In this document: in pieces, positions 23,549 to 37,276 of the stretch
Layout: every line of letters begins with the position of its first letter
Position numbering within the stretch: position 1 is the first letter of the stretch
Source of the DNA: Bacteroidota bacterium
Lineage (GTDB): Bacteria > Bacteroidota > Ignavibacteria > Kryptoniales > JAKASW01
DNA length: 50,329 bases
Reading direction: 5' to 3'
Assembly (NCBI GenBank): GCA_021794075.1
Contig: JAJYRM010000017.1
Span: forward strand, 1-50,329
The notes under the pieces: model-generated
What the model was told of the DNA's origin: nothing
Databases searched by the model: none
The model's input: only the letters and a program-made list of their open reading frames with translations
Made by a program: the position numbers and the translations under genes

Positions 23549-23636
23549 GGAGAGGTGCGAGAGTGGTTGAATCGGCTCGCCTGGAAAGTGAGTTACCGTC
23601 AAAAGCGGTACGTGGGTTCGAATCCCACCCTCTCCG
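23549..23636 (+). tRNA. tRNA-Ser (anticodon GGA)
   Basis: An 88-base class II tRNA. The acceptor stem is GGAGAGG / CCTCTCC with discriminator G. The anticodon stem CTCGC / GTGAG holds the loop CTGGAAA, so the anticodon is GGA at 23583-23585 (codons UCC/UCU). The long variable arm pairs TACCG with CGGTA, and the T arm is GTGGG TTCGAAT CCCAC. The 3' CCA is not encoded. Confidence 0.96.
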
Positions 23637-23685
23637 CTCGATTCTATAGCTCTGAAAATCTCGGATTGTTCTTCTGAAAATCACT

Positions 23686-23772
23686 GGAGAGGTGCGAGAG
23701 TGGTTGAATCGGCCGGTCTCGAAAACCGGAATACCCTTCGGGGTATCGAGGGTTCGAATCCCTCCCTCTCCG
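23686..23772 (+). tRNA. tRNA-Ser (anticodon CGA)
   Basis: An 87-base class II tRNA with the same acceptor stem GGAGAGG / CCTCTCC and discriminator G. The anticodon stem CCGGT / ACCGG holds the loop CTCGAAA, giving anticodon CGA at 23720-23722 (codon UCG). The variable arm is ATACCC TTC GGGGTAT, and the T arm GAGGG TTCGAAT CCCTC. CCA is not encoded. The first 28 bases are identical to the preceding tRNA-Ser. Confidence 0.96.
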
Positions 23773-24330
23773 CGAGATAGTTCAAGATAAGTTGGGGCGT
23801 TCAGTCGTCTCCTCGTTCTTCGGGATGAAAGGCTCGGGGAGAGATGCCTGTGAAATGCAGAGAAGGCGATTGAAGACTGACCGAAGGAGTTTACCTGACG
23901 TAAGAGCCCACATTTGAGAGGGCGAATCATTTTGTGATGACTTTGTGTCGAGGTGCTAGAGGCTGACTCAATGTCGCAGTCTCGTGAGTGGCTTCTACTA
24001 CGTGTACTCTGAAGCGGTCTTGGGCGAAGCGGACACAATGCATCATCCGGAAAATTTGCCGTCAGTCGTGAAGGTAAATTCTACAGACCCTGGTCAAGGA
24101 GAAGATTTGGTTCCTTTTCAAATCAAAGAACTTTGCCGATTATTTCGGCGTTGGCGATTGCTCAAGCTCTCGCGTCGCAAAATGTCTCTTTTTGAGGTAA
24201 ATATCTCCTCGAGTGGCGGCCCTCCTTTGTAGCACCAATCTTAGATTTCATTTTCCATCACCGTGCAGAAAGCCAATTCTTGATTTTTACTAATGGCAGG
24301 AATATCTTGGTGTCGTGTTTAGAGGCCGGC
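23773..24330. other. gene-free stretch between tRNA-Ser(CGA) and the TPR gene
   Basis: About 560 bases without a convincing gene. The first part holds the possible structured RNA at 23798-23883. Further hairpins are TTAC/GTAA (23891-23903), ATCA/TGAT around 23926-23938, and GAGGCTG (about 23959-23965) with CAGTCTC (about 23977-23983). An 82-codon GTG frame at 23984-24232 has no ribosome site or family resemblance. Nothing else is recognised; promoters for the TPR-aroE unit must lie here. Confidence 0.5.
23798..23883 (+). ncRNA. possible structured RNA (three-way junction), unassigned
   Basis: Downstream of the tRNAs, nested complementary segments can form a junction. An outer stem pairs TCAGTC (23801-23806) with GACTGA (23875-23880), extended past a mismatch by CG/CG (23798-23799 with 23882-23883). 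Inside it, TCTCCTCG (23808-23815) pairs with CGGGGAGA (23835-23842) including one G-U, and GCCT (23846-23849) pairs with AGGC (23864-23867). It does not show the conserved cores of RNase P, SRP, tmRNA or 6S RNA. The strand is a guess; an RNA on either strand could fold this way. Confidence 0.25.
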
Positions 24331-26741: not shown

Positions 26742-27065
26742 TTATTTTCGTAGAAGAGCTGTTATTATGATCAGAGCGTCTTCTACGGGTGCGTCCGAGA
26801 TACTTCCCCCCGTATGTGATGCGACACTCGTCATGAGGCGAGCAGCGGCGCTGTGAATTTCTTCCGTCATTTCGATTGATTCAGATATAATGTTTAAGCA
26901 CTGGATTGAGCTCAGTAAACCATCGTTCAGGCCCGAAAGGCTTGAATAAGCGTATGCCTTTGCTACGGCTCTTCGAGCGCAGACGCGGGCTTTCCCGTCG
27001 TTCCCGTCCAGTCCCGCATCGCGTGCCATAGCAAGTTCGATCTCAATGTCTCGCGGAAGCGCCAT
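26742..27065 (-). CDS. small helical protein of unknown function downstream of uvrA
   Basis: A 107-residue frame whose ATG lies 23 bases inside the end of uvrA, preceded by GAGGAACGG. The product is predicted largely helical (IEIELAMARDAGLDGNDGKARVCARRAVAKAYAYS, LLSSIQCLNIISESIEMTEEIHSAAARLMTSVAS) with no signal or membrane segment. I do not recognise a family. Overlap with uvrA and a plausible ribosome site support it as a real, co-translated gene. The Ala/Arg-rich first half resembles the style of HEPN-like or four-helix-bundle proteins, but this is not enough for a call. Confidence 0.65.
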   Translation of the reverse strand: MALPRDIEIELAMARDAGLDGNDGKARVCARRAVAKAYAYSSLSGLNDGLLSSIQCLNIISESIEMTEEIHSAAARLMTSVASHTGGSISDAPVEDALIIITALLRK

Positions 27066-29946
27066 TTGTTCCGTTCCTCAGATAATCCGCGAGATATTTG
27101 CCAGTGTAGGATGCCTTTGACTTCATAATCGTTTCTGGAGGTCCTTGTGCTACTATCGTGCCACCTCCGGCACCGCCTTCCGGACCGAGATCGATCACCC
27201 AGTCCGCGCACTTGACCACATCAAGATTGTGTTCTACGATGATGACCGTATTTCCCTTGTCGACGAGTTTGTGCAGCAGGTCAAGAAGTATCCTGATGTC
27301 TTCGAAGTGCAGCCCGGTGGTCGGCTCATCGAGTATGTAGAGTGTCTTGCCTGTGGCGACCTTGGAAAGCTCCGTGGCGAGCTTAACTCGCTGCGCCTCG
27401 CCTCCGGAGAGCGTCGTGGATGATTGTCCGAGACGAAGGTAGCCGAGGCCGACATCCACCATTGTCTGAAGCTTTCTGTTAATCGATGGGATATCCTCGA
27501 AGAGCTGAGCGGCCTCCTCGACAGTCATCTCGAGTACATCGGCTATCGTCTTTCCCTTGTATTTCACGTCGAGGGTCGCGGCGCTGAATCTTTTCCCGTT
27601 GCATACTTCACACTTGACGTAGACATCGGGGAGGAAACTCATCTCGATTTTTCTCATCCCATCGCCTTCGCAGGCCGGGCAGCGTCCTTCTTGAACGTTG
27701 AACGAAAACCTACCGGGTCGGTAACCTCGTAGTTTCGACTCCGGAAGCTGCGAGAACAAATCTCTTATCGCGGTAAATACTCCGACGTAAGTCGCGGGAT
27801 TGGAACGCGGAGTCCTGCCAATCGGCGACTGGTCGACGTCGACGACCTTGTCGATGAGTTCCATCCCGGTTATCTCTTTGTATGGAAGGGGCTGGTCGGA
27901 CATTCTATAAAACCGTTTGCCCAGTATCCTGTAGAGAGTATCATTGATCAGCGTGGATTTTCCCGATCCACTCACACCGGTAATGCAGACGAAGAGTCCA
28001 AGAGGGAATTTGACATCGACATCCCTAAGATTATTTCCTGAAGCGCCCTTCAATGATAGGTAGGCGTCGTTCGGCTGTCTTAGAAGTTCCTTCGGCCTTA
28101 CCGGTATCTCTTTCTCATCGCGCAGGTATGCTGCCGTCAATGACTCCTCTTTTTCCGAAAGTAGTTCCTCGAAAGTTCCTGCCTTGACGACGCGTCCCCC
28201 ATGCTCGCCGGCCCCCGGGCCGAGGTCCACTATGTAATCGGCATTCTCCATTGTCTCACGGTCATGTTCAACAACGATAACGGTGTTGCCGAGGTCACGG
28301 AGGGACTTGAGTGAGTTGATTAGGCGAACGTTATCGCGCTGATGAAGCCCGATGGATGGTTCGTCGATTACGTACAGAACGCCTGTCAGTTGGGAGCCGA
28401 TCTGAGTCGCGAGCCTGATTCGCTGCGATTCTCCCCCGGATAAGGTCCCTGAAGGGCGATTCAGGTTGAGATAGTCGAGTCCGACGTTGAGCAGAAACTT
28501 CAGCCTGGTTCTTATCTCATGCAGGATTGGTTGAGCTACTTTTTGACTCCGTTTTGGGAGTGTCAACGCGTCCATAACATTACTCACCCTGTCGATGGGA
28601 TCTTTGACAACTGAGTTTATAACAAGCTCGTCCCCGTTATTTTCCACCACACGGACAAACCGGCTTTCCGCCCTCAACCTTGTCCCGCCACAAGCATTAC
28701 ACTCGCTGAAGGGGAGGTGAGCCTCGATATCCGCCGCCTGCTTGCCGAAATAGACTTCGAAGTCGAGCTGCTTGAGCATCGGAACAAGCCCTTCGAACTT
28801 ATTGTTCAGGTTTGAAATCGAGACTCCGGCAAACTTTATTCCTTTCTTGCTCTCCTTCAGGTTCTTGCCGTAAAAAATCAAATCCCGGACTGCAGAGTTG
28901 AGCTGCTCGAAGGGTGTATTGGTATTCACGCCATGCGGCTCGAGGAGGCTATTGAGCATGCTCATCAAGAAAAAGTCGTCCCGCTTAGGAAAGAGGAGGG
29001 CTCCTTCGGTTATCGACAATTTGGGATCGACAACAATTGCCTCTGGATTGATGTCGCGGCTCAGTCCGGTCCCGCCGCAAGTGCGACACATGCCGAATTT
29101 TGAATTGAAGGAGAACGAGTTCGGCGCGAGGTCTGGATAACTCGTCCCGCATTTCGGACACGACTTTAAACGGCTGAAGAATGTGTCCTTTTTTGCTTCG
29201 TTCTCATGAACGATAACTGTGCCGGAGCCTCGTTCTAATCCGATCTTTAAAGACTCGCGGAGCCGCGACGATGACTTAGCCTGAATCTTCAATTTGTCGA
29301 CCACAAGTTCGATGTTGTGCGTTCCGTACCGGGAAACTTCCATCCCTTCCTGAAGATCCTTCAGGACGCCATCCACTCTTGCCTGCACGAAACCTTCCGC
29401 CATGAGTTCTCGAAACAGTTCTCTGTAATGTCCCTTCCGTCCAATCACCAGAGGGGCGAGGAGCAAGATATTGCGATTGGCAAAATTGCTTAAGATAGTC
29501 TGATGAATCTGATCGGGAGTCTGCTGCTGCACCGGAATGTTGCAGTTGACGCAAAATTGCGTGCCGACTTTCGCAAAGAGTAAACGGACGTAATCGTAAA
29601 TCTCCGTCACTGTTCCGACTGTCGAATGAGGATTGGTGCTGATTGTCTTCTGTTCGATAGCCACTGATGGACTGAGACCCTCGATCAAATCCACGTCGGG
29701 ACGTTCGAGGATTTGTAAGAATTGGCGGGCGTATGCCATCATAGTTTCCAGGTAGCGCCTCTGACCTTCGGCATATATCGTGTCGAATGCGAGCGACGAT
29801 TTGCCGCTTCCGCTCAGTCCAGTTATTACTATGAATTTCTCCCGGGGAAGATCGAGATCAATGGATTTGAGATTGTGCTGTCTGGCACCTCGAATCACTA
29901 TGTTGTCCAAAGCGTTCTTTGGATTTTCGCCTGGTATTCTTTTCAT
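27043..29946 (-). CDS. uvrA: excinuclease ABC subunit A
   Basis: UvrA recognises DNA damage in nucleotide excision repair. It has two ABC ATPase halves: Walker A GLSGSGKSSLAFDT and GVSGSGKSTLINDTL, signatures LSGGESQRIRLATQIGS and LSGGEAQRVKLATEL, and two zinc modules (CPKCGTSYPDLAPNS..CRTCGGTG and CPACEGDG..CEVCNGKRF). The frame extends up to 30081, but the family start (NIVIRGARQHNLKSIDLDLP) is about 15 residues after Met at 29946, giving 967 residues, near the normal 940-950; the extra upstream part looks non-coding. The unrelated small gene overlaps its 3' end, and the ATP-grasp gene is divergent. Confidence 0.96.
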   Translation of the reverse strand: MKRIPGENPKNALDNIVIRGARQHNLKSIDLDLPREKFIVITGLSGSGKSSLAFDTIYAEGQRRYLETMMAYARQFLQILERPDVDLIEGLSPSVAIEQKTISTNPHSTVGTVTEIYDYVRLLFAKVGTQFCVNCNIPVQQQTPDQIHQTILSNFANRNILLLAPLVIGRKGHYRELFRELMAEGFVQARVDGVLKDLQEGMEVSRYGTHNIELVVDKLKIQAKSSSRLRESLKIGLERGSGTVIVHENEAKKDTFFSRLKSCPKCGTSYPDLAPNSFSFNSKFGMCRTCGGTGLSRDINPEAIVVDPKLSITEGALLFPKRDDFFLMSMLNSLLEPHGVNTNTPFEQLNSAVRDLIFYGKNLKESKKGIKFAGVSISNLNNKFEGLVPMLKQLDFEVYFGKQAADIEAHLPFSECNACGGTRLRAESRFVRVVENNGDELVINSVVKDPIDRVSNVMDALTLPKRSQKVAQPILHEIRTRLKFLLNVGLDYLNLNRPSGTLSGGESQRIRLATQIGSQLTGVLYVIDEPSIGLHQRDNVRLINSLKSLRDLGNTVIVVEHDRETMENADYIVDLGPGAGEHGGRVVKAGTFEELLSEKEESLTAAYLRDEKEIPVRPKELLRQPNDAYLSLKGASGNNLRDVDVKFPLGLFVCITGVSGSGKSTLINDTLYRILGKRFYRMSDQPLPYKEITGMELIDKVVDVDQSPIGRTPRSNPATYVGVFTAIRDLFSQLPESKLRGYRPGRFSFNVQEGRCPACEGDGMRKIEMSFLPDVYVKCEVCNGKRFSAATLDVKYKGKTIADVLEMTVEEAAQLFEDIPSINRKLQTMVDVGLGYLRLGQSSTTLSGGEAQRVKLATELSKVATGKTLYILDEPTTGLHFEDIRILLDLLHKLVDKGNTVIIVEHNLDVVKCADWVIDLGPEGGAGGGTIVAQGPPETIMKSKASYTGKYLADYLRNGTNGASARH

Positions 29947-30112
29947 CCGAATCCCAAATTTATCCCTGATCCGCTCCAATTTCAATCCAAAACATCGCAC
30001 TCTCCACGGCATGTGGGGCACAAAATGAATCAACCCATGGCGCGTTTCGAGTCCCAGTGGCGCGATGGCATCCTTAGCCAACTGAGTAGAAAGATTCTTA
30101 AATTATGCTGAT

Positions 30113-31039
30113 ATGGAAACTATTGATTGCGCGGTAATTTACGAGTGGGAATACGACGATGATTTCGTATCGATATTGTCGAACAAGTTGTCGGCAATGA
30201 ACATTACGCACAGAGTCTTCCATGCGGGCGAACTCAAAGGCACTCTCGATAAGGTGAAGGAAAGGGAGCTCAACTTCCGTTGTGTTCTCGACCGTGCGTC
30301 CGATGTCGATGAAAATGCGGAGGCTCTCGTTACAATGCTAAGGCGGAGGGGGACACGCATAGTGAACGATCCCGTCGAGATCCGGCACGCCTCTGACAAA
30401 GCATCCATGCATCTTGAGTTTATAACCGCCGGCATCTATGTCCCGTACACTATAATCATTTCGCCGTATAGCACTCAGAGGGAAGTCAAGCTGAGTATCG
30501 GAGAATTGGCGCGCCTGGGCCGACCGTTCATTATCAAACCGGCAAATACTACCGGGGGCGGTATAGGGGTCGTCACCGGTGCGGAAGGTCTTCAGGAGGT
30601 CATCGAAACGAGGCAGCATAACAAAGACGACAAATATTTGTTGCAGAAAAAGGTCGAGCCGATTCAGACGAACGGGCGCCGCGCGTGGTTCAGGCCATTC
30701 TATGTTTTCGGAAAAGTTCTCATCTGCTGGTGGGACGATCAAACTCATCTTTACTATGAAGCGACTGAGGATGAAATATCGCGATTTGCTTTGAGTGAGG
30801 TCGACAAAATAGTTCGGAGGATACACGACGTCTGCAAGTTGGAATTCTTTTCGACGGAAATCGCGTTGTCAGAAGACAGGCAGTTCATCGTTATAGATTA
30901 TGTCAATGAGATGTGTGATATGAGAATAAAGTCGAAACATTACGACGGCGTCCCCGACACCGTTGTCGAAGAGATAGCGGCGCGATTAGCTGTCGGGGTT
31001 CGCGAACTCATTGAGCAGAGGAAGCAAATTTCCGCATGA
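30113..31039 (+). CDS. ATP-grasp domain protein of unknown function
   Basis: The 308-residue protein has the ATP-grasp layout. There is a pre-ATP-grasp N-terminus (about 1-95), then DKASMHLEFITAGIYVPYTIIIS, the nucleotide-binding segment RPFIIKPANTTGGGIGVVTG (Lys at about 143), YLLQKKVEPIQ, and a metal-binding end FFSTEIALSEDRQFIVIDYVNEMCDMR in which Glu and Asn (VNE) would bind Mg. Such enzymes ligate a carboxylate to an amine or thiol using ATP; the substrates here are unknown. It has no clear ribosome site before ATG 30113. Its stop overlaps the start of the fusion nuclease (ATGATG), implying coupled translation. Confidence 0.85.
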   Translation: METIDCAVIYEWEYDDDFVSILSNKLSAMNITHRVFHAGELKGTLDKVKERELNFRCVLDRASDVDENAEALVTMLRRRGTRIVNDPVEIRHASDKASMHLEFITAGIYVPYTIIISPYSTQREVKLSIGELARLGRPFIIKPANTTGGGIGVVTGAEGLQEVIETRQHNKDDKYLLQKKVEPIQTNGRRAWFRPFYVFGKVLICWWDDQTHLYYEATEDEISRFALSEVDKIVRRIHDVCKLEFFSTEIALSEDRQFIVIDYVNEMCDMRIKSKHYDGVPDTVVEEIAARLAVGVRELIEQRKQISA

Positions 31040-32682
31040 TGTCGGAAACGTTATCCGTGCTTGAAGATGACTTCAATGATGCTGTCTTTTCGGTTGTCGA
31101 CGTTGAAACTACCGGCACTATGGCGGCTGACGAAAGGATAATCGAGTTTGCCGCCTACAAGGTGCATCGCGGAAAGATAATCGACGAATATTCGACGCTG
31201 GTGAATCCCGGTCGACACATTCCGAATTTCATTCGGAACATGACGGGCATAAGCAACGACATGGTCTATGGTGCGCCACAGTTCAAGGACATTGCGCTAC
31301 CGATCAGCAGGTTTCTGGAAGGCTCGATCTTCGTCGCTCACAACGCTCAGTTTGACTACTCTTTTGTCCGCAGCGAAATGAACAAGGCTGGGTTCGGACT
31401 GGATATACCGCATCTTTGCACCCGGAAGCTCAGCTCACGGGTCTTTCCTCAGCTTCCCAGGAAAGCGCTCGATCAGGTTTGTCATCACCTCGGGATAAAA
31501 ATCAGCGGGCGGCATCGCGCGTACGGTGACGCAAGGGCGACGGCTCATCTTCTCATTGAACTACTTGAGTTTGTGAGAGAGCGGCATGAGGTGGTTAGTC
31601 TTGAAGAGCTGCTCAATTTTCAGAACATCCCGCAACGGATCGACAGGCATCAGAACCAGAACGTGTTCAAGTCGGCCATGAAAGCGGTCCCGAATGCTCC
31701 GGGAGTCTATCTGGTTCACGATTCCGACGACGAGATCGTTTACGTCGGCAAAGCCAAGAACCTGAAGCTCAGGATGGCTTCCTACCTGACTGAGAACGCG
31801 AGAGACGCGGCGAAGGTTCGCAAAATGCTCAGCACGGCCAGGAGGCTTGAGTGGGAACAAACTTCGTCAGAATTAAGCGCCTTCATGAGGGAGGTCCAGC
31901 TCATAAGGCGACATCGACCGCGCTTCAACTCTCAACTTGTCAACCCGAGGCGATTTCCATTTATCAAGTTATCTACCGAGAGAAGATTTGAAAGGCTCGA
32001 CCTTGTCTATGAGCTGGCTGAAGACGGTAGATACTACGGTCCGTTCGAAAGCTCGTTCGTAGCAGAGCAGGTGCTTTACGCGGCAGACAAGTACTTCAAA
32101 CTCGTGAAGTGCGAGAATGATTTTGTCGAGCCCTTTGATCCGTGTCTCTATTTCTACATCGACAGATGCGCCGCGCCTTGCAAGGGAGATGTAACCGCCG
32201 AGACTTATAACTTGGAAGTCGAAGCCGCCGAGGAATTCCTGAGTGGCTCCTTTGAGAAGCTTGTCGCAGAGTTGCGTTTCAGACTCGACGAGTTGTCGAA
32301 GAAACTTGAATTCGAAGATGCTGCCGTTGCCCGCGACCAGATCGAGATTATCGAGCGAATGTCCTCTAAACTGAGACTCCTAAATGGCCCGATAGGGAAG
32401 GCGAACTTCATTTGCGGCTGGACTAATGAAGGGACCATTGAATTGTATAGGGTGAGCAGGGGACTGGTGTTTGGGCCGGTAAAGAGCGGAGGGAACGAGT
32501 TGGACCCGGCGCTTGAATTCCTGAAAAATAAATCGGAAAGTATCACAAGCGATTTTGTCCCTCTTAGGATCCTACTGAATTACGCGATGAAGAATCAGGA
32601 CGGTTTCTTCAAAATCGATACAGGCGGTATAGGGAACGGCGAGGAGATCCTGAGCAAAATAAAAACCGCTGCCGGTCTCTGA
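31036..32682 (+). CDS. DEDDh exonuclease - GIY-YIG (UvrC N-terminal-like) fusion nuclease
   Basis: 548 residues. Residues about 13-185 form a DnaQ-like DEDDh 3'-5' exonuclease: VVDVETTG (D,E), AHNAQFDYSF (D), HRAYGDARAT (H,D). Residues about 220-300 form a GIY-YIG nuclease: APGVYLVHDSDDEIVYVGKAKNLKLRMASYL (Arg), FMREVQLIRRHRPRFNSQL (Glu, Asn). Four Cys follow in the spacing C359-x10-C370-x7-C378-x3-C382 within CLYFYIDRCAAPCKGDV, the region that binds an iron-sulfur cluster in UvrC. A UVR-like helical pair is at about 395-450. The C-terminal RNase H-type nuclease and HhH domains of UvrC are absent, so it is not UvrC. It is probably a DNA-repair or Cho-like nuclease. Confidence 0.9.
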   Translation: MMSETLSVLEDDFNDAVFSVVDVETTGTMAADERIIEFAAYKVHRGKIIDEYSTLVNPGRHIPNFIRNMTGISNDMVYGAPQFKDIALPISRFLEGSIFVAHNAQFDYSFVRSEMNKAGFGLDIPHLCTRKLSSRVFPQLPRKALDQVCHHLGIKISGRHRAYGDARATAHLLIELLEFVRERHEVVSLEELLNFQNIPQRIDRHQNQNVFKSAMKAVPNAPGVYLVHDSDDEIVYVGKAKNLKLRMASYLTENARDAAKVRKMLSTARRLEWEQTSSELSAFMREVQLIRRHRPRFNSQLVNPRRFPFIKLSTERRFERLDLVYELAEDGRYYGPFESSFVAEQVLYAADKYFKLVKCENDFVEPFDPCLYFYIDRCAAPCKGDVTAETYNLEVEAAEEFLSGSFEKLVAELRFRLDELSKKLEFEDAAVARDQIEIIERMSSKLRLLNGPIGKANFICGWTNEGTIELYRVSRGLVFGPVKSGGNELDPALEFLKNKSESITSDFVPLRILLNYAMKNQDGFFKIDTGGIGNGEEILSKIKTAAGL

Positions 32683-32718: not shown

Positions 32719-33492
32719 TTATAGTTGGCTAATGAACTCCTTGGCTCTCGCAGCGTACTGGGATTTCGGGTCTTTGCTGATAAGCTCTTCCCAAATTGTT
32801 CTCGCCTCAGGCTTGTTGCCCATATGGACGTACGACATTCCAAGCATGAGATAAGCCGCGCCGGTCTTATAACTGTGGCCAAAAGACAAAACAGACTTGA
32901 AGGCGTTTGCCGCGTCGGTGTATTTCTGCTGGGCGTAATAGCATTCCCCCATCCAGTACACAGCGTTGCTCGTCATGTTCGGCAGTACTTTGCTGTTGCT
33001 TAGGCCGCTGAATATTGCCAGAGCTTCGTTGTACTTCCGGGTCTTGAAGAGATCTAATCCCTGATTGTAATACTGCATGAATTCCGCCTGAGTTGAGATC
33101 GGTCCGATCCCGTTTCCGAGTGAAGCTCGTTCCGCATCGGCATTCCTCGCGCTAAGATCTCGGTTGATTTGCTTCTGAACAGTGAGTTCCGAATCAAGCT
33201 GGTTCACGCGAGCCTGAAGATCCTGAAGGTCCTGCCATTGCTGGCTGCTTTGTCCGAGTCTCGAGGTAAGGTCGGCGACCTTGGCGTTCAACGCTTTCTT
33301 ATCCTGCTCAAGTTGTGTCACGGATTTTCGAAGTTGCATGTTATCGGTCTGCAACTTCTGGTTCTCGAAGTTCAATGAATCCGCGCTGGCCTTTGATGTT
33401 TCGACGCTCGACCCGCATCCGGAAAGCAGGAGGTTAGCTGCGAATAGTAAAGCTACAAACACAAATGATGCCCCATGCAGTGATCGTTTCAT
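32719..33492 (-). CDS. coiled-coil TPR lipoprotein (YbgF/CpoB-like)
   Basis: A 257-residue lipoprotein. The frame extends to 33603, but ATG 33492 has a strong ribosome site (GAGGAGGG, eight bases away) and starts a lipoprotein signal MKRSLHGASFVFVALLFAANLLLSGC (lipobox LLSGC). A coiled-coil with repeating Leu/Gln heptads follows (about 35-115, SLNFENQKLQTDNMQLRK to LDSELTVQKQ), then three TPR units (FMQYYNQGLDLFKTRKYNEALAIF, SNAVYWMGECYYAQQKYTDAANAFKSVL, TGAAYLMLGMSYVHMGNKPEARTIWEEL). This resembles CpoB/YbgF of the Tol-Pal system, but no tol genes are nearby, so the name is not assigned. A terminator follows. Confidence 0.9.
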   Translation of the reverse strand: MKRSLHGASFVFVALLFAANLLLSGCGSSVETSKASADSLNFENQKLQTDNMQLRKSVTQLEQDKKALNAKVADLTSRLGQSSQQWQDLQDLQARVNQLDSELTVQKQINRDLSARNADAERASLGNGIGPISTQAEFMQYYNQGLDLFKTRKYNEALAIFSGLSNSKVLPNMTSNAVYWMGECYYAQQKYTDAANAFKSVLSFGHSYKTGAAYLMLGMSYVHMGNKPEARTIWEELISKDPKSQYAARAKEFISQL

Positions 33493-33529
33493 AAGGATTT
33501 CCCTCCTCAAGATTAAGATTAAAATTCGA

Positions 33530-33682
33530 ATGAAATTAGACAAGGGTACTTTAAAAGTCAAGAAAGTAGAGGACGAATTGTTCCGTGTCACATTAGACCG
33601 CAATCAGTCGGACATCATCAAGTGGTACATGGACAAGATTACAAGCGCGTCACAGTTAGCATTTATTTCAGTATTTGAATAG
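33530..33682 (+). CDS. possible 50-residue charged protein
   Basis: A short frame from ATG 33530 to TAG encodes MKLDKGTLKVKKVEDELFRV-, continuing with LDRNQSDIIKWYMDKITSAS and ending FISVFE. It has normal amino-acid composition, an amphipathic helix and no rare-residue runs. It lies between the start of the divergent lipoprotein and the GH13-like gene. No ribosome site precedes it (an AT-rich GATTAAGATTAAAATTCGA instead). It might be a leaderless small gene or simply the promoter region of its neighbours. Confidence 0.4.
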   Translation: MKLDKGTLKVKKVEDELFRVTLDRNQSDIIKWYMDKITSASQLAFISVFE

Positions 33683-33706: not shown

Positions 33707-36700
33707 ATGAGATCGCACAAGCAAATGTCCTGGAAGCAAGCCTCGCGAGAATTCCATATATCAAGGAAGGCACGGGAGCAATTTCGGTTCGATGAAACTC
33801 TTTTTTCAATCACCGGAGACGTCATCTTTGTAAACCCGCGGGCGGCCCAGCGCTTCGCCACCCAACTAAACGAAAAACGGAAGAAGGAAGCCGCCGACAA
33901 AACCATGCGCCGCCGCGCCGTGGGCACCACGGTGACAGCAAGCGAAATAAATGCAATGGGGCTCTTCCATGAAGTGCTTCATTTCATCATAGCGAGTTAT
34001 GAGAAGGACGTCAACCCGCACGTGTTCGATAAACTTGACGAATGGCTGTCTGCACGTATAGGGAAGAAGAAACTTTCGGAACTGCAGCACGCATTCCTTG
34101 ACCAATTCCCGCCGACACCGGTTTATCGGAACGAGATAGATGCGCAGGCCTTCATGACGGCAAACCACTTAGGTCTGAACGGGAAGCAGCTCGTATTTGA
34201 AGAGCTCATTTTGCTCTGGCTTCAGAACCGAAATCCTGCTTTCGACGCGATTGCGGATCTGCTCGATGACTCGGTGCTCGATAAGAAGAGCGATTACAGA
34301 ATAACGCTTTCCGAGAGCGACGCATTTTTCAGTATGCAGCCCGGTTACGGACCCGCCGATTCACCTCTGATAAAAATGCTCCTCGCTCCCATTGAGGCGA
34401 GCCCGGATTCGATAACCGGACAGCTCCAGTTCATCGCTGAAAACTGGGGGGACATTTTGAAAGATTCGCCGTTCCTGTCTAGAATCCTTCGCGCGATCGA
34501 CTTCGTGAAGGAGGAAGGCAAATACTTCATGATGCTCGCGCAGGCACAGGCAGACAAAGCAAAGATTCCCAATGTCCGCCGTCCGGGCTTTGAAAGTTTT
34601 GGCGAAAGGGGAGCCGAGCCTGTGCTGAGGTTCCGGGGCACGGGTGCCGAGTACGAAGCTGAGAACTTCACCGCCGATTTGAGCTGGATGCCGCGACTGG
34701 TTCTAATCGCGAAGAATGCTTTCGTCTGGCTCGATCAGCTCAGCAAAAAATACCGTCGCCAGATCGACAGACTCGACCTCATTCCGGATGAGGAACTCGA
34801 TATACTGTCGCGTCGAGGCTTCACCGGCCTCTGGCTCATTGGCATTTGGAAACGCAGTGAAGCCTCCCGTAAAATCAAGCATCTCAACGGCAATTCGGAC
34901 GCGATCGCATCCGCTTACTCGCTGGCCTCTTATGACATAGCAGCGGAATTGGGAGGTGATCACGCTTACCGCAACCTTAAGGACAGAGCGTGGCGCTTTG
35001 GAATTCGGTTGGCGAGCGACATGGTGCCGAACCACATGGGTATAGATTCAAGCTGGGTGGTTGACCATCCTGACTGGTTCCTCTCTGCCGATTACCAGCC
35101 GTATCCGAACTACGCGTTCAACGGACCTGATCTGAGTGGAGACGATCGGGTTGGAATCTTCCTGGAAGATGGTTACTGGAGTAAGAGTGACGCTGCCGTG
35201 GTTTTCAAGAGGCTTGACAGGTGGACCGGCGACGTGAAATATATTTACCATGGTAACGACGGCACGCACATGCCTTGGAACGACACAGCACAGCTCGATT
35301 TCACAAAACCCGAAGTGCGGGAGGCCGTTATTCAGGCAATCCTTCACGTGGCCAGGATGTTTCCGATAATCAGGTTTGACGCCGCGATGGTATTAAGCAA
35401 GAAGCATTATCAGCGTCTCTGGTTTCCTGAGCCTGGCACCGGCGGCGCTATACCTTCACGGTCCAATTTTTCAATGACTAAGGATGAATTCGACGCAGCC
35501 ATACCTGTTGAATTCTGGAGAGAAGTTGTCGACAGGGTTCAGCAGGAAGCGCCCGATACACTTCTCCTGGCGGAGGCGTTCTGGCTCATGGAAGGCTATT
35601 TCGTTCGGACCCTTGGAATGCACAGGGTTTATAACAGCGCCTTCATGAATATGCTTAAGCGTGAAGATAATGCCGGCTACCGCCAGGTTGTCAAGAATGT
35701 GCTTGAGTATAATCCGCAGATATTGAAACGGTTCGTTAATTTCGTGAACAATCCGGACGAAGAGACAGCGATCGCCCAGTTCGGAAAGGATGACAAGTAT
35801 TTCGGCGTATGCGTTCTGATGGCAACCATGCCGGGGCTTCCGATGTTTGGGCACGGTCAGGTTGAGGGGCTGACCGAAAAATACGGGATGGAATTTAAGC
35901 GAGCTTACCGTGACGAGAGTGAGGACGAGAATCTCGTCGCGAGACACGATCGAGAAATTTTTCCATTACTGAGAATGAGGCAATACTTCAGCGAGGTCGA
36001 CAATTTTCTTCTGTATGACTTTTTTGTTGGAGACGGCCAGGTGAACGAAGATGTCTTTGCCTACAGTAATCGAATTGGGAATGAAGGCAGCCTGGTGGTT
36101 TACAATAACCGCTATGCTCATACTGCCGGATGGGTAAAGATGTCGGTCGCGTTCCGCGATTCTTCCGGAAAGCTGGTTCAGAAGAATCTTGCCGATGGCT
36201 TGTCGCTTTCTAAGAGGCAGACTAGCTATACTATTTTTCGCGACGTTATCAACGGCGTTGAGTATATAAGAGCTACCGGATCTATCAGGCGGGATGGCTT
36301 ATTCGTTGAGCTCGGGGCTTATAAATACAACGTTTTCGTCAATTTCAGGGAAGTTTACTCAACAAAAGAATTGCCTTATGATGAGGTATGCCGGTCTCTA
36401 AACGGGCGCGGTGTCAATTCCGTCGAGGAAGAACTTTGGCTTATGAAACTCCGTGACGTTCACGCGGCATTTTACGAGGCCTTGAATGGCGGAAGCCTCA
36501 GATACCTGGTCGAAGGTATGAGTGGTGGCAAGTTGAAGCGAGATAGGGCGAAAGCCTTCCGCGAAAAAGTCCAGCGTCTTGATACCGCTGTCAGCATGTA
36601 CCGTCATTCGGCGGGAAGGGTGGCGGGAGATTTTGACATCAATTTCTACAGAGCGCTTGCCGGTGTTGTGATTTTTCTACAAGGGAGTGAATCGGCTGGC

Positions 36701-37276
36701 CATCTACGAAAAATAATGCGACCTGACCATGGTAACTCGTTGATAGGACTACGTGTTGAGTTCCTTTATTTCTTCTTAAGGATATTGACTTCGGATGGCG
36801 CGGAGCTACATAATGGCGGAGCGTGCAAGGAGGTTTCGGAGCTCCGCTTGGGCGGTCAGACTAAGGCGTGTTTCTTGGATCTCGGAGTTGAAAGTGGAAC
36901 TGCGGAGTATGAACTCAACCTTGCGTGTGTCTTATGTGACGCCTTCGGTGGGCCGTTGCGATCCGACAAGGATCGTGCGGGGGAGCTGTTATTAGCGGCT
37001 TTGAAAAAGGAATCTGTCCGCGATATTCTCTCTGTGCATGAGTACGAGGGCGTTTGGTGGTTCAACAAAGAGAGATTCGATGATTTTGCCGCATATTTTG
37101 TGTTTACCGCGTGTGTCGAATTTTTGGCTGCTCATCATGATCTAGGTCTCGAGAAGGCGGCACCGCAATTGGTAGAGCTCGTGAAGTGGGGAGCGGCAAT
37201 AAACCGGCTTGCTTCGAAATCAGGATACAGATTTGATGAGTTTGCAGAGGCATTGAACGAAAAGATTCAGGTTTAG
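33707..37276 (+). CDS. large alpha-amylase-family (GH13-like) protein with extra N- and C-terminal domains
   Basis: 1189 residues. A GH13 TIM-barrel lies in the middle (about 350-790). Catalytic regions: I, ASDMVPNHMG (about 438-446); II, IIRFDAAM with nucleophile Asp558; III, LLLAEAFW with acid Glu623; IV, FVNNPDEETA with Asp684. Region IV normally reads NHD, so Pro683 replaces the usual His. About 330 residues precede the barrel (charged helical, ending FTADLSWMPRLVLIAK) and about 390 follow it (including HAGRVAGDFDINFYRALAGVV and a helical end); neither is recognised. There is no signal peptide. ATG 33707 lacks a clear ribosome site. It may act on a glucan or trehalose-type substrate inside the cell. 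Confidence 0.85.
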   Translation: MRSHKQMSWKQASREFHISRKAREQFRFDETLFSITGDVIFVNPRAAQRFATQLNEKRKKEAADKTMRRRAVGTTVTASEINAMGLFHEVLHFIIASYEKDVNPHVFDKLDEWLSARIGKKKLSELQHAFLDQFPPTPVYRNEIDAQAFMTANHLGLNGKQLVFEELILLWLQNRNPAFDAIADLLDDSVLDKKSDYRITLSESDAFFSMQPGYGPADSPLIKMLLAPIEASPDSITGQLQFIAENWGDILKDSPFLSRILRAIDFVKEEGKYFMMLAQAQADKAKIPNVRRPGFESFGERGAEPVLRFRGTGAEYEAENFTADLSWMPRLVLIAKNAFVWLDQLSKKYRRQIDRLDLIPDEELDILSRRGFTGLWLIGIWKRSEASRKIKHLNGNSDAIASAYSLASYDIAAELGGDHAYRNLKDRAWRFGIRLASDMVPNHMGIDSSWVVDHPDWFLSADYQPYPNYAFNGPDLSGDDRVGIFLEDGYWSKSDAAVVFKRLDRWTGDVKYIYHGNDGTHMPWNDTAQLDFTKPEVREAVIQAILHVARMFPIIRFDAAMVLSKKHYQRLWFPEPGTGGAIPSRSNFSMTKDEFDAAIPVEFWREVVDRVQQEAPDTLLLAEAFWLMEGYFVRTLGMHRVYNSAFMNMLKREDNAGYRQVVKNVLEYNPQILKRFVNFVNNPDEETAIAQFGKDDKYFGVCVLMATMPGLPMFGHGQVEGLTEKYGMEFKRAYRDESEDENLVARHDREIFPLLRMRQYFSEVDNFLLYDFFVGDGQVNEDVFAYSNRIGNEGSLVVYNNRYAHTAGWVKMSVAFRDSSGKLVQKNLADGLSLSKRQTSYTIFRDVINGVEYIRATGSIRRDGLFVELGAYKYNVFVNFREVYSTKELPYDEVCRSLNGRGVNSVEEELWLMKLRDVHAAFYEALNGGSLRYLVEGMSGGKLKRDRAKAFREKVQRLDTAVSMYRHSAGRVAGDFDINFYRALAGVVIFLQGSESAGHLRKIMRPDHGNSLIGLRVEFLYFFLRILTSDGAELHNGGACKEVSELRLGGQTKACFLDLGVESGTAEYELNLACVLCDAFGGPLRSDKDRAGELLLAALKKESVRDILSVHEYEGVWWFNKERFDDFAAYFVFTACVEFLAAHHDLGLEKAAPQLVELVKWGAAINRLASKSGYRFDEFAEALNEKIQV

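Follow-up and report, generated by a model that had tools for sequence, protein, structure and literature searches.

Do an ATP-grasp ligase and a fusion nuclease that are encoded by overlapping genes beside uvrA work together in DNA repair? The question arises in the window, by which we mean the whole 50,329-nucleotide stretch of DNA analysed here, where the ligase gene (30113..31039, + strand, 308 aa) runs into the nuclease gene (31036..32682, +, 548 aa): the nuclease start, ATGATG at 31036-31041, overlaps the TGA of the ATP-grasp ORF. On one side uvrA is divergent (27043..30081, –, with its true start probably at ~29946), and on the other a gene for a coiled-coil and TPR (CpoB/YbgF-like) lipoprotein is convergent (32719..33603, –). 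The original prediction described this translational-coupling layout correctly, both ORFs being present, intact and overlapping with uvrA divergent from them, and suggested that the pair could be a DNA-repair or nucleic-acid-modification module. It is on this last point that our analysis departs from it.

Judged by its sequence, the nuclease is a Cho-like+Exo protein, an already known and ordinary kind of DNA-repair enzyme. In the product from the second ATG at 31039 (P0002, whose numbering we use), Pfam matches to RNase_T (1.6e-35), GIY-YIG (2.2e-9) and UVR (1.3e-4) correspond to a DEDDh exonuclease domain (31093..31551, +, residues 19-171), a GIY-YIG domain (31699..31923, +, residues 221-295) and a UvrB-binding UVR motif (32254..32346, +, residues 406-436), the last barely above the Pfam cut-off (PF02151, 22.0 bits vs 21.5). 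The expected residues are retained in an alignment of 35 nucleases (A5): D21, E23, D106, H159 and D164 of the DEDDh domain are kept in 35/35, and Y224, Y235, G237, R245, E285 and N297 of the GIY-YIG domain are invariant. Between GIY-YIG and UVR lies a C4 region (32110..32181, +) with cysteines C358, C369, C377 and C381 conserved in 35/35, 35/35, 35/35 and 34/35 sequences. Their spacing, C-x10-C-x7-C-x3-C, is as previously described, and the numbers C359/370/378/382 given for them at that time are counts from the first ATG. Exonuclease-type proteins were among the Foldseek matches listed for the nuclease model. The nuclease is of the same kind as the NCBIfam PRK07883 models but scores under their cut-offs: NF005906 matches residues 11 to 456 at 1e-128, and the score of 429.7 does not reach the curated cut-off of 495 for the PRK07883.1-4 equivalog.

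The genome also encodes a UvrC-like ORF, and an hhalign comparison with it covers P0002 residues 210-498 (probability 100), passing through C4 and UVR and slightly beyond. The alignment ends at 498, before the RNase H-type nuclease at the UvrC C-terminus, which bears out the earlier statement that this domain is absent; the first part of the C-terminal folded region (32404..32679, +) aligns with UvrC between UVR and the RNase H nuclease. A passage of PMC1564403 gives the Cho-like+Exo order as ExoIII-type exonuclease, GIY-YIG, C4 and UvrB-binding domain and, like our protein, the architecture it presents has no EndoV/RNase H or HhH domain. That passage places such proteins in Actinobacteria only, whereas we find fusion nucleases of this kind in many genomes across the Bacteroidota. 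It also relays a suggested mechanism in which digestion by the exonuclease starts at the GIY-YIG incision and runs through the lesion. In our reading, the GIY-YIG domain would nick near a lesion while the UVR motif contacts UvrB, leaving the strand to be trimmed by the DEDDh domain. A passage of PMC9426483 describes a [4Fe4S] loop downstream of GIY-YIG in UvrC, which makes an Fe-S site at the C4 region plausible, and this putative site may help the nuclease bind DNA. The nuclease half of the original prediction, a DnaQ-type exonuclease fused to GIY-YIG, is supported, and the protein reads as a repair nuclease of the UvrC/Cho type whose C4 region resembles that of UvrC. Within the family, genome G348 shows the nuclease split over two frames (in L154, and as two ORFs in L040), the gene being either broken or misassembled.

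The ATP-grasp ligase has a RimK/LysX-type fold, seen in a predicted model (AlphaFold, mean pLDDT 95.8) whose closest matches are ArgX, RimK and LysX, tied at Z 22.1-22.6, followed by D-Ala-D-Ala ligases and PPIP5K2. The ligase shares with RimK, LysX and ArgX this fold and the general ATP-grasp motifs. However, it scores under every curated cut-off (for TIGR00768, 38.5 vs 143.4 bits) and carries a conserved signature of its own, in keeping with a separate subfamily: two consecutive Trp, T-H-x-Y and N-x-x-CDMR...DGVPD. A 71-sequence alignment (A1) has 29 invariant columns. A PDB sequence search returned no significant match, with either the single sequence or a profile. Carriers comprise 45/296 Bacteroidota, 24/82 KSB1-type and 7/40 Calditrichota-type genomes (all three being working phylum labels for genome groups) and one record titled Auribacterota (L105). 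Phages and plasmids that were searched gave no match, and a mobile-element origin was rejected on that ground. A stand-alone DnaQ-like exonuclease gene is convergent, ~1-3 kb downstream of the ligase gene, in L048, L051, L063, L077 and L089.

Neighbourhoods show how far the pairing extends. The ligase was present in 13/13 family genomes with the nuclease following on the same strand in each, and in most of these loci the nuclease starts between –4 and ~+18 bp from the ATP-grasp stop; uvrA is found at 11/13. The adjacency therefore does extend beyond this one genome, as the pair hypothesis called for, but it was found at no locus outside the clade. Among 110 ATP-grasp loci (with flanks of 1.5 to 8 kb, some contigs ending near the ligase and some genomes counted twice), 13 have the nuclease next to the ligase and 11 have uvrA adjacent, every one from this clade; no nuclease lies beside the ligase at the other 97, nor at L145-L151 and L164-L189. 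Seen from the other side, 30 fusion-nuclease loci were fetched, and by coordinates none of the 27 outside the window's genus is beside an ATP-grasp gene. Even within the family, the two most divergent loci (L162 and L163) have a gap of at least 120 bp and lack uvrA. At the level of the class, a fusion nuclease (E<=1e-55, a cut-off picked after gaps in the score list were seen) occurs in 26/36 genomes with the ligase and 32/37 without it, no positive association beyond chance (26/10 vs 32/5, p=0.16). The tight same-strand arrangement and the divergent uvrA are what a repair or nucleic-acid-modification module would offer in its favour. Set against clade-limited adjacency and chance co-occurrence, and with the ligase tracking another set of genes described below, they leave such a module highly improbable, and we rejected it on both neighbourhood and phylogenetic profile. 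The pairing of nuclease and ligase is lineage-specific.

Other neighbours of the ligase suggest a role at the cell envelope, in which it would take part in envelope assembly with a CpoB-like TPR lipoprotein and the products of TPR lipoprotein, DUF4292 and M23 genes. A CpoB/YbgF-like lipoprotein homologue follows the ligase in many Ignavibacteria loci, and in the genome-contig set a CpoB-like gene is near it in 51/80 loci, a TPR lipoprotein gene in 40/80, and DUF4292 and M23 genes in 28/80; the D-Ala-D-Ala ligases among its best structural matches point the same way. However, long stretches were examined for 18 of the 24 KSB1-phylum carriers, and none of these 18 loci has such genes by the ligase. 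The neighbours also differ by lineage (NagB, RsgA, FBPase, RadA), a pattern that fits shared ancestry rather than function. We consider an envelope role quite unlikely, though the envelope genes beside the Ignavibacteria ligase, possibly marking a real link of another kind, also weigh against the explanation we prefer.

That explanation starts from a gene set that recurs around the ligase in KSB1-type genomes, consisting of two tandem Ddl-like ATP-grasps, a GNAT and a KamA-like radical SAM enzyme, with the occasional addition of a GNAT-histone-deacetylase-type fusion, an M28 peptidase, and a sensor kinase and NtrC-type regulator (these two named from sequences by eye). In KSB1-type, Calditrichota-type and Auribacterota genomes this cassette is often within 9 kb of the ligase gene or abuts it. 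At least one of three cassette families occurs in 12/18 long KSB1 loci and none in 6/18; KamA overlaps or abuts the ligase (gap 0-6 bp) in L105, L205 and L206, and in L198 and L203 the order is KamA, then the GNAT-HDAC fusion, then the ligase at a gap of 4. The fusion gene in that position spans L203:6269-8008, for which the domains were shown, and L198:8846-10603. A common family for the ligase and the two Ddl-like enzymes of the cassette was considered and rejected (hhalign probability 2.7).

All five gene families are present in the window genome. Contig C170 (L241, 8928-12755) carries the four cassette genes consecutively, as Ddl-like A, Ddl-like B, GNAT and KamA, with best identities of 51, 42, 44 and 59% to genes of L105, L062, L102 and L206. 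Ligase and cassette are not side by side here, being on separate contigs (C232 and C170), which counts against a functional link in this genome.

Across genomes, the ligase tracks the KamA/GNAT/Ddl-like cassette in both neighbourhood and phylogenetic profile. Among 296 Bacteroidota genomes, 44 have both the ligase and the cassette marker A2, 1 (G156) the ligase only, 9 the marker only and 242 neither, rows in which A2 matched less well than 1e-100 (copy B, Ddl-type) being left out; beyond the class, ligase and marker occur in exactly the same genomes (9 and 9). With KamA at a minimum of 568 bits as the marker, the corresponding Bacteroidota counts are 41, 4, 9 and 242. The KSB1 phylum has 19 genomes with both, 5 with the ligase only, 7 with the cassette only and 51 with neither (p=8e-9, a Fisher value inflated by the kinship of the profiled genomes), and the Calditrichota type 4, 3, 0 and 33. 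Where both occur, A2 is within 9 kb of the ligase in 15/19 KSB1-phylum and 2/4 Calditrichota-type genomes. The presence cut-offs of 1e-100 (Bacteroidota), 1e-80 (elsewhere) and 568 bits (KamA) were picked after gaps in the score lists were seen. Because Fisher p-values overstate the independence of related genomes, a family-level test is fairer: the cassette is found in 11/11 families with the ligase and 3/39 others (p=1e-8). Within families, only f3 is informative (14 both, 2 neither). The discordant genomes, in which A2 lacks the ligase (nine Bacteroidota, seven KSB1) or the ligase lacks A2 (one Bacteroidota, five KSB1, three Calditrichota-type), weigh against the link between the two.

On these grounds, we think it likely that the window holds two functionally separate genes with a shared transcript in one genus, the ATP-grasp being a ligase of a KamA-centred five-gene pathway. 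The evidence tying it to this apparently unnamed pathway is good but circumstantial; it consists of sequences, neighbourhoods and profiles, from which we infer substrate, product, catalytic steps and the shared transcript. The best NCBIfam model for KamA is lysine 2,3-aminomutase (TIGR03820), although its 461.8 bits are below the cut-off of 525.4, a shortfall that tells against the assignment. Two aspartates of the 2a5h alignment, both of which we take to bind the lysine side chain, are kept in KamA and invariant in A3. The most likely reaction of this radical SAM enzyme would be the conversion of L-lysine to beta-lysine.

An aminomutase of this type might instead serve a protein. The genome's EF-P (L243:11943-12497, –) has Asn at the tip position, presumably where certain bacteria have the Lys that becomes beta-lysylated; KamA is therefore unlikely to serve EF-P, and EF-P lysylation was set aside as its role. 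The same residue argues against a broader alternative, in which ligase and cassette modify a protein by RimK/RimI/EpmB-like tagging rather than make a small metabolite, since EF-P is then no EpmB-type target. Tagging would suit a RimK-like ligase, a KamA with an EpmB relative and a GNAT that scores best with RimI (41 bits, under the cut-off), but two Ddl-like amino-acid ligases suit small-molecule peptide synthesis better, and we regard protein tagging as unlikely.

Taken together, the KamA model match, the kept aspartates and the EF-P Asn lead us to propose a small-molecule pathway that builds on beta-lysine and in which the task of the ATP-grasp is to form an amide bond. The RimK/LysX-like enzyme would convert a carboxylate to its activated acyl phosphate and from this make an amide, acting as the detached fifth member beside KamA, GNAT and the two Ddl-like ATP-grasps and as the third ligase of the pathway. 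The product is probably a small beta-lysine-containing amide or peptide that could serve as osmolyte, signal or tag. A more specific reading goes further: a cross-phylum, unnamed pathway (KamA, GNAT, two Ddl-like ligases and the ATP-grasp, in some genomes joined by the GNAT-HDAC-fold deacetylase, sensor kinase and NtrC-type regulator) would make a new beta-lysine peptide or tag, its genes dispersed in Ignavibacteria and its last ligase captured into a nuclease operon in one genus. For this fuller account we see the chances as even.

One of the closest known systems to the cassette is the ablA-ablB acetyl-beta-lysine osmolyte pathway, in which an aminomutase of the KamA type is likewise paired with a GNAT acetyltransferase. 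The pathway considered here differs in adding three ATP-grasp ligases and in its small RimI-like GNAT, and both its KamA and its GNAT are below curated cut-offs. Multi-gene amidoligase systems were reportedly predicted by Iyer and colleagues in 2009, and these are said to link ATP-grasp ligases with GNATs and modified-amino-acid enzymes, as the cassette does. By title and abstract we found no literature joining KamA-type aminomutases with these ATP-grasps, which is weak evidence of novelty. In place of a tempting operon-based guess, that ligase and nuclease form a repair module, the analysis gives this ligase family, which reaches across Bacteroidota, KSB1-type, Calditrichota-type and Auribacterota genomes, a pathway assignment that can be tested. 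Should the assignment be true, it points to a beta-amino-acid metabolite that to our knowledge has so far not been linked to these phyla.

Two further features of the window deserve mention. A 1189-aa ORF (33707-37276, +) has an alpha-amylase catalytic domain mid-protein (PF00128, 1.1e-9), flanked by long N- and C-terminal parts with no assigned domain; its homologues hold their position near the locus across the genus, and the L222 copy is just downstream of the ATP-grasp. In addition, two tRNA-Ser genes stand in tandem at 23549-23637 and 23686-23773 (+), with anticodons gga and cga.
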